A DNA stretch of 45,336 nt from Candidatus Sulfopaludibacter sp. SbA4 (GTDB taxonomy: Bacteria; Acidobacteriota; Terriglobia; Bryobacterales; Bryobacteraceae). Position 1 is the stretch's first letter. Each line of letters opens with the position of its first letter. Below the pieces are notes generated by a model that worked only from the letters and a program-made list of their open reading frames with translations, ran no database searches and was not told the DNA's origin. A program made the position numbers and the translations under genes. Location of the stretch: NCBI GenBank assembly GCA_900290305.1, contig OMOG01000778.1, positions 1-45,336 on the forward strand, read 5' to 3'. Shown one piece after another: positions 3,955 through 5,034 of this stretch.

Positions 3955-4410
3955 TCAGGCTTGGGATTCCGGATTCAGGATTGCCAGGCCTTCCGCCTCA
4001 GCCGCCTCCAGAAGTTGGAGGTCCGCGCACACGAAGGTGGGCTGCTCCGCGGGAACGTTGGCTTTGAGAAACAGACAGCCGGCAAGTTGTACCGCGTCGT
4101 AGGCTCGCAAGGGATGGCGGTCGATCAAGCCACATGCCAGCTCGAGAATCGCCTCGCCGAGGCTCTGGCGAAGGAACGTGGCCTCCAGATGTTGGGTGAA
4201 CCGTTGGATCAGCCCAGCCACCGTGCCTTGGTCAATATCCCCGGCCCGCTGGCGTCTCCGCAGTGCCGATCGAAACTCCACCTGGGAGATAGCGAGCACC
4301 GCAAAGCGATGGTTGAACTCGGGGTGTGCGAGCCGGAGCATACGTTCCGTGCCGGTCTCGCGAATGTACAGCTTGACCAGGGCGCTGGTGTCCAGGTAGT
4401 AGAGAGCCAA
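3955..4410 (-). CDS. PIN-domain ribonuclease toxin (VapC-like)
   Basis: 151-residue PIN domain. The four acidic metal-binding positions are visible: Asp7 ([12 protein letters not shown]), Glu45 ([10 protein letters not shown]), Asp105 ([10 protein letters not shown]) and Asp130 (FVCADLQLL). This is the pattern of VapC-type RNases that cleave tRNA or rRNA. No ATG fits the frame; translation must begin at TTG (4408-4410), 3 bases after the stop codon of the upstream 206-residue gene, so expression should be coupled to that gene. Placement as the second gene is typical for the toxin of a type II pair. The usual small AbrB/RHH/Phd antitoxin is absent; the preceding gene is the only antitoxin candidate. 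Confidence 0.85.
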
Positions 4411-4413
4411 TGG

Positions 4414-5034
4414 CTAGCGCCTTTCGCGCAGAACCGTGGCCGACAACGCCTCGCCACGAATGGCTACCGGCTGGAATCCGAGAGGGGAGTCCGCAGCCGC
4501 GCCGAGGAGCGTCTGGACTTCGGGGAGGGAGCGATTCAGCCGAATTGCAGTTACGGGAAACATCGGAGACTTGGGGTTTGGTACTTTGCTAGTCAAAACA
4601 ATCCTTCTTTCGATTGAGTCGCGAAGCACCGCGGCTCGAGCGCCGGCATCCGCCCATGCCGGACGCACCGCCGGGAGCACCGAATCGCGGAACCACTTGA
4701 GCGCCACGAAATCATACCCCGGCCTCGATTCGGCGCGATCCAAAGTGCGAATCAACTCGGCGACGGAATCGTTGACCTCCGGCGTACTCGGCCGTACAGG
4801 ATCGGAAGCTGGAGGGCTCGCCGGCTCGTGAGCGGCTTCGAAATTGACTCGAATCTCTCCGGAACCGGCGGACCAATTCTCCACGGAGGTGTCATGCCGC
4901 TTCTTACGGCCGGTCTTCTTGTCGTGGATTGAAACGTGGGGACGAAAGCCGGCGAACTGGGAGAGATTACGAAGAGATGCGGAAAGGTTCCGCTCGATTT
5001 CAGCCTCTAGTTCCTTGATAGTGATCTCGCTCAT
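4414..5034 (-). CDS. Unrecognised 206-aa protein, candidate antitoxin partner of the PIN toxin
   Basis: Not recognised. It starts MSEITIKELEAEIERNLSA, a likely helical segment, followed by a basic patch (DKKTGRKKRHD, about residues 38-48), a Pro/Ser-rich linker (about 69-87), a helical middle region and a C-terminal end PVAIRGEALSATVLRERR. No helix-turn-helix, ribbon-helix-helix or AbrB fold is obvious. It precedes the PIN gene by 3 bases on the same strand and follows a strong promoter with an overlapping palindrome, the arrangement expected of an autoregulating antitoxin. At 206 residues it is more than twice the usual antitoxin length. AGGAG lies 10 bases before the ATG. The antitoxin role is inference from position only. 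Confidence 0.6.
   Translation of the reverse strand: MSEITIKELEAEIERNLSASLRNLSQFAGFRPHVSIHDKKTGRKKRHDTSVENWSAGSGEIRVNFEAAHEPASPPASDPVRPSTPEVNDSVAELIRTLDRAESRPGYDFVALKWFRDSVLPAVRPAWADAGARAAVLRDSIERRIVLTSKVPNPKSPMFPVTAIRLNRSLPEVQTLLGAAADSPLGFQPVAIRGEALSATVLRERR

Follow-up and report, generated by a model that had tools for sequence, protein, structure and literature searches.

VapBC antitoxins are usually small proteins, of about 70–100 amino acids, whose front domains are of the AbrB, RHH or Phd type. The question raised by the locus described here is whether a much longer protein, of 206 amino acids, which is encoded directly before a PIN gene in a 45,336-nucleotide stretch of DNA from Candidatus Sulfopaludibacter sp. 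SbA4 (hereafter the window), could act as such an antitoxin and, if so, which of its parts would perform which task. Following comparison of the locus with its relatives, it is very likely that the two genes form a type II, VapBC-like operon with an unusual antitoxin, in which a C-terminal tail would block the toxin, a winged helix would autoregulate the operon and the toxin would be weakly translated. In this regard, what we infer for the pair is the cleavage of RNA by the toxin, the neutralisation of that toxin, and the binding of DNA and autorepression by the antitoxin.

The gene pair and its toxin

The two genes lie on the minus strand as a chromosomal pair, the antitoxin gene (ORF 4414–5034, 206 amino acids, ATG start) being followed by the gene for the PIN, or VapC-like, toxin (ORF 3955–4410, 151 amino acids, TTG start). 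The junction reads TAG-CCA-TTG, leaving a gap of three bases, and the TTG is the sole in-frame start codon of the PIN ORF downstream of the preceding stop codon; both ORFs are as an earlier note on this DNA had described them. The 151-residue protein matches the Pfam PIN family PF01850 at 26.0 bits, against a cut-off of 23.6 bits, and also gives a profile match to PAE0151 (2fe1). Its acidic quartet, as placed by alignment, consists of D7, E45, D105 and D130, the last three of which are invariant in one alignment of PIN proteins (A6), while position 7 is either D or E. The source genome, of 10 Mb, contains 48 PIN-family matches, which is a large set for one genome.

A possible ribosome-binding site for the toxin, GAAAGG (4420–4425, minus strand), stands 9 nt 5′ of the TTG and within the final codons of the antitoxin gene, and similar purine-rich stretches precede the toxin in many relatives. 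Across the 26 intact pairs of the family (see below), the toxin start codon is TTG in 16, GTG in three, CTG in two and ATG in five (that is, non-ATG in 21 of 26), and in all 26 it is near the antitoxin stop. The toxin level may be kept low because the TTG is a weak start codon whose use is tied to the end of the antitoxin gene, and weak, coupled translation of this type would hold the antitoxin in excess.

Distribution of the antitoxin family and its pairing with PIN genes

Searches of Pfam, NCBIfam, PADLOC, PHROGs and PDB sequences with the 206-residue protein returned nothing, and its relatives have no convincing library match either. PDB sequences searched with both the antitoxin and its profile gave no match, nor was a described relative found in the open-access literature. 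The architecture of the antitoxin is one unseen by the family libraries used, which means that annotation based on these libraries would leave the partner of the PIN protein unnamed. Searches of plasmids, phages and viral contigs also returned no relatives of the antitoxin and so lend no support to a current origin on a plasmid or phage.

Family searches were made with the single protein against 257 genomes of the window's order and with a profile against 396 sampled genomes of the phylum. The relatives are spread over several families and classes, with named records from Bryobacterales, Ca. Solibacter and one MAG labelled Chloroflexi, and the pair is kept at about 31–62% identity in many other genomes, a degree of conservation which exceeds chance. 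The spread of the winged-helix domain of the antitoxin (see below) is patchy, this domain occurring in 16 of the 237 genomes at the level of the taxonomic family and in 11 of the 396 sampled genomes of the phylum. Weak matches at L002, L022, L023, L024, L025, L070 and L071 were excluded, being regarded either as chance matches or as decayed reading frames.

There are 29 full-length, tail-bearing members of the antitoxin family, all in distinct genomes, several of which belong to one genus, such that the counts are not fully independent. An intact PIN ORF adjoins 26 of these, only a few bases from the antitoxin stop and sometimes overlapping it. The remaining three comprise two with a broken PIN gene (L006 and L016, in the latter of which the antitoxin gene is broken as well) and one, L012, in which the antitoxin gene is open and no PIN gene comes after it. 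To the question of whether homologues of the 206-residue protein travel with PIN genes, which the earlier note had posed, the answer is therefore that they do, and that homologues without a PIN gene are not common. Its proposal of a new antitoxin family is supported both by this pairing and by a tail which is common to short PIN-associated antitoxins.

Acidic residues are present at all four active-site positions in 21 of the 26 PIN ORFs. The exceptions are L018, with G at position 105, and L033, L035, L036 and L038, all from genus g85, in which the last catalytic Asp, at position 130, is replaced by S (the L033 protein additionally having A at position 105). The antitoxin tail is eroded in the same four loci, where both genes are nevertheless adjacent and open. 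This retention of the pair, despite the lost D130 and the eroded tail, suggests that in this lineage it may have a role beyond toxin activity.

The C-terminal tail

The last ~20 residues of the antitoxin follow the pattern FxPVxIRGExLSxTxLRERR (amino acids 187–206; 4417–4476, minus strand) and are disordered in the model of the free protein. Beyond the full-length family, 11 further loci in the phylum match the profile over just its last ~25 residues, and most of these are short ORFs; at L042, a decayed copy, the profile match is slightly longer than at the tail-only loci. A PIN ORF comes directly after the tail-only loci L043, L044, L045, L048, L049, L052 and L053, and the PIN proteins of the tail-only loci are related to that of the window at 29–48% identity. 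As to what stands before the tail, the front part at L052 is Phd/YefM (Pfam 7e-8; NCBIfam phd_fam), those at L050 and L053 are RHH-like at weak scores, and others have no library match. The Phd/YefM- and RHH-type antitoxins of L052 and L053 thus have the same C-terminal tail before a related PIN gene, but differ from the window antitoxin in that their front domain is unrelated and much shorter.

The simplest reading of these sequences is that the tail is a toxin-binding segment which has been joined to different front domains. By this reading the flexible tail (GExLSxTxLRERR) would be the part of the antitoxin that blocks the PIN ribonuclease. The finding of one short tail on several unrelated front domains, before related PIN toxins, amounts to a clear example from nature of mix-and-match assembly in antitoxins.

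It might be argued that the 206-residue protein is a mere transcription regulator, which is co-transcribed with the PIN gene and does not neutralise its product. Such an account is in keeping with the predicted winged helix and the operator-like repeat, both described below, and with the survival of the gene without PIN in L012; moreover, tail-less relatives with no nearby PIN gene exist, in the form of a homologue split over two contigs (L029:2–304 and L030:3983–4414), which has the N-terminal domain and the winged helix without the tail, and for which a PIN relative was sought, and not found, in the available downstream DNA. Since this PIN-less homologue is also the one without the tail, tail and PIN tend to co-occur. 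Against a purely regulatory protein stand the tail itself, common as it is to short PIN-associated antitoxins of other folds, and the lack of any third candidate antitoxin gene between or beside the pair, and we consider this account very unlikely.

Fold of the antitoxin and relatives of its winged helix

An AlphaFold2 model of the antitoxin, calculated from a six-row alignment with a moderate mean pLDDT of 70.6, contains an N-terminal domain, a linker, a helix–helix–helix–strand–strand–helix unit at residues 86–177 and a low-confidence tail. The N-terminal domain (amino acids 1–67; 4834–5034, minus strand), as delimited by the alignment and the model, has a helix at residues 6–21 and strands at 30–38 and 59–67, together with the basic patch DKKTGRKKRH at about residues 37–46. 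This patch had been pointed out in the earlier note, and its RKKR core is indeed largely conserved in the alignment. The same note had seen no recognisable fold in the protein, a view which no longer holds, since the model predicts a winged helix at residues 86–180 (4495–4779, minus strand). Structural comparison of about residues 81–180 gives VanR as the best match (Z 9.5, rmsd 2.9 over 87 residues), with PadR, MarR and RecQ-type domains ranking close behind; Z values of 8–9.5 are middling and little above background, but the order of the elements agrees. A read-through fusion of the antitoxin and PIN proteins, in which the TAG was read as Q, was tried as a stand-in for the complex and was uninformative (pLDDT 53.9, with a poor PIN part).

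With respect to the suggestion that the module might be one of three functions, the antitoxin can be divided into three parts (N-terminal domain, winged helix and tail), although roles are inferable for the last two alone.

A winged helix in a PIN partner has precedent, as fusions of DUF433 (COG2442) with a winged HTH are on record next to PIN genes, for example in Rv2018/Rv2019 (PMC2701414). The length of the antitoxin, which had been singled out as unusual and is indeed about twice the usual size, becomes less surprising in the light of that pair. Rv2018, known here by its published description, resembles the window antitoxin in being a long PIN partner that contains a winged helix; the window antitoxin differs in being without DUF433, for which there was no Pfam match in it or in 17 relatives at E values up to 1, and in the context of its tail. 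Nor did searches of Pfam and NCBIfam give any match in it to the Phd/YefM, AbrB or RHH DNA-binding domains. With Rv2018 set apart by description, the front part of the antitoxin, as judged by its sequence, does not appear to match any of the described AbrB, RHH, Phd and DUF433 types.

A profile of the core alone located a further copy of the winged helix as the C-terminal domain of an NYN protein, NYN being a PIN-like nuclease domain. This protein, of about 262 amino acids, is found at L069 (G157:C143:42800–43003, minus strand), and scores 28.7 bits with a profile made without L020, as compared to at most 6.1 bits in 2000 shuffles. In this respect the antitoxin resembles the NYN/LabA (DUF88) proteins, one of which ends in a domain homologous to the antitoxin's winged helix, but in the window the domain is on a separate, tail-bearing protein beside a PIN protein, and most of the NYN proteins examined end otherwise: none of the others matched the winged helix of the antitoxin, and the C-terminal ends of many are OST-HTH-like by eye. 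RNA binding has been predicted for OST-HTH, a winged-helix domain that occurs in fusions with DUF88 nucleases (PMC2848206), such that it is also possible for the winged helix of the antitoxin; a Pfam search of the latter gave no match to OST-HTH. L020 (G082:C458) encodes a protein that has a predicted membrane helix and, at its C-terminus, the winged helix, and no PIN gene adjoins it.

These relationships bear on a second account, in which the winged helix binds RNA, much as in NYN/LabA-like RNA presentation, and the two proteins form an RNA-processing complex or the antitoxin also steers the toxin. The L069 fusion behind an NYN nuclease domain speaks for this account, as do the predicted RNA binding of OST-HTH, albeit a different winged helix, and the conserved basic patch. 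On the other hand, L069 is the single NYN fusion found among the proteins examined, the operator-like repeat fits DNA binding and the tail is of the antitoxin type, and an RNA-binding role for the winged helix is therefore thought unlikely. In a related arrangement, the antitoxin would combine the toxin-blocking tail with an RNA-handling or sensing module common to NYN-type nucleases, such that it would silence the PIN protein and target it to particular RNAs, or would free it when the N-terminal domain senses a signal; this we hold to be improbable. The tie between a toxin–antitoxin module and a domain found on an NYN nuclease makes the question of the winged-helix ligand testable in a small system.

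The predicted promoter and operator

The preferred reading, of a VapBC-like operon under autoregulation, draws on the region upstream of the antitoxin gene. This region is AT-rich and contains, on the minus strand, a −35-like TTGACA (5113–5118) and, 17 nt from it, a −10-like TATAAA (5090–5095). The earlier assertion that the module has its own AT-rich promoter is borne out to the extent of this composition and these two elements, although a stricter scan for promoter consensus gave no score for TTGACA/TATAAA. The −10-like element lies within a perfect inverted repeat, ATATTTATA-N-TATAAATAT (5087–5105), which is the predicted operator. Shuffling gives an expectation of zero for this 9+9 repeat, and the repeat is unique in the genome when up to two mismatches are permitted.

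L003, with about 60% identity in the antitoxin, has kept both the −35 and the repeat, and the bases between them have diverged. Different repeats occupy the corresponding upstream region in L004, L032, L019, L034 and L039, and in many relatives no upstream repeat beats the shuffles. The position of the repeat over the promoter may be taken to indicate autorepression of the operon, in which the winged helix, possibly together with the basic N-terminal domain, would bind the repeat and thereby repress its own promoter.

Two other features of these upstream regions can be mentioned. In L019, a distant homologue, the antitoxin start is preceded, at a distance of 125 to 95 bases, by the perfect 15+15 inverted repeat CAATTCGGAATATCG-a-CGATATTCCGAATTG. 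In the window, a GC-rich hairpin, GGAGGCGCTCCG (5064–5083, minus strand), is situated downstream of the promoter and ahead of the antitoxin start codon.

The overall picture is close to that of VapBC modules, in that the antitoxin gene comes first and the PIN gene directly after it in one operon, the PIN protein has the acidic quartet, an operator-like palindrome is placed at the promoter and the antitoxin ends in a segment, predicted to bind the toxin, which is common to short PIN-associated antitoxins. It departs from these modules in the size of the antitoxin and in its predicted winged helix and extra N-terminal domain.

History of the locus

The module in the window is flanked by the gene gap on one side and an amidohydrolase gene on the other, and the module at L006 adjoins the corresponding amidohydrolase gene. 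At L006 (1495–2489) the antitoxin gene is open and the toxin gene is dead, having TTA where its relatives have TTG and a rearranged middle. At L021 (1501–1614), between the gap and amidohydrolase genes, what is left of the antitoxin gene is its final 38 codons, in a short ORF that ends in the tail, and the toxin gene is gone.

Decay of relatives at the corresponding site, as in L006 and L021, raises the prospect that the module in the window genome is likewise decayed or inactive. Both window ORFs, however, are open and full-length, and the four acidic residues of the PIN protein, the tail and the operator are all intact, which makes inactivity here highly improbable. The module has probably occupied the site between the gap and amidohydrolase genes for a long time, with decay in some of the relatives, which in L006 struck the toxin first.
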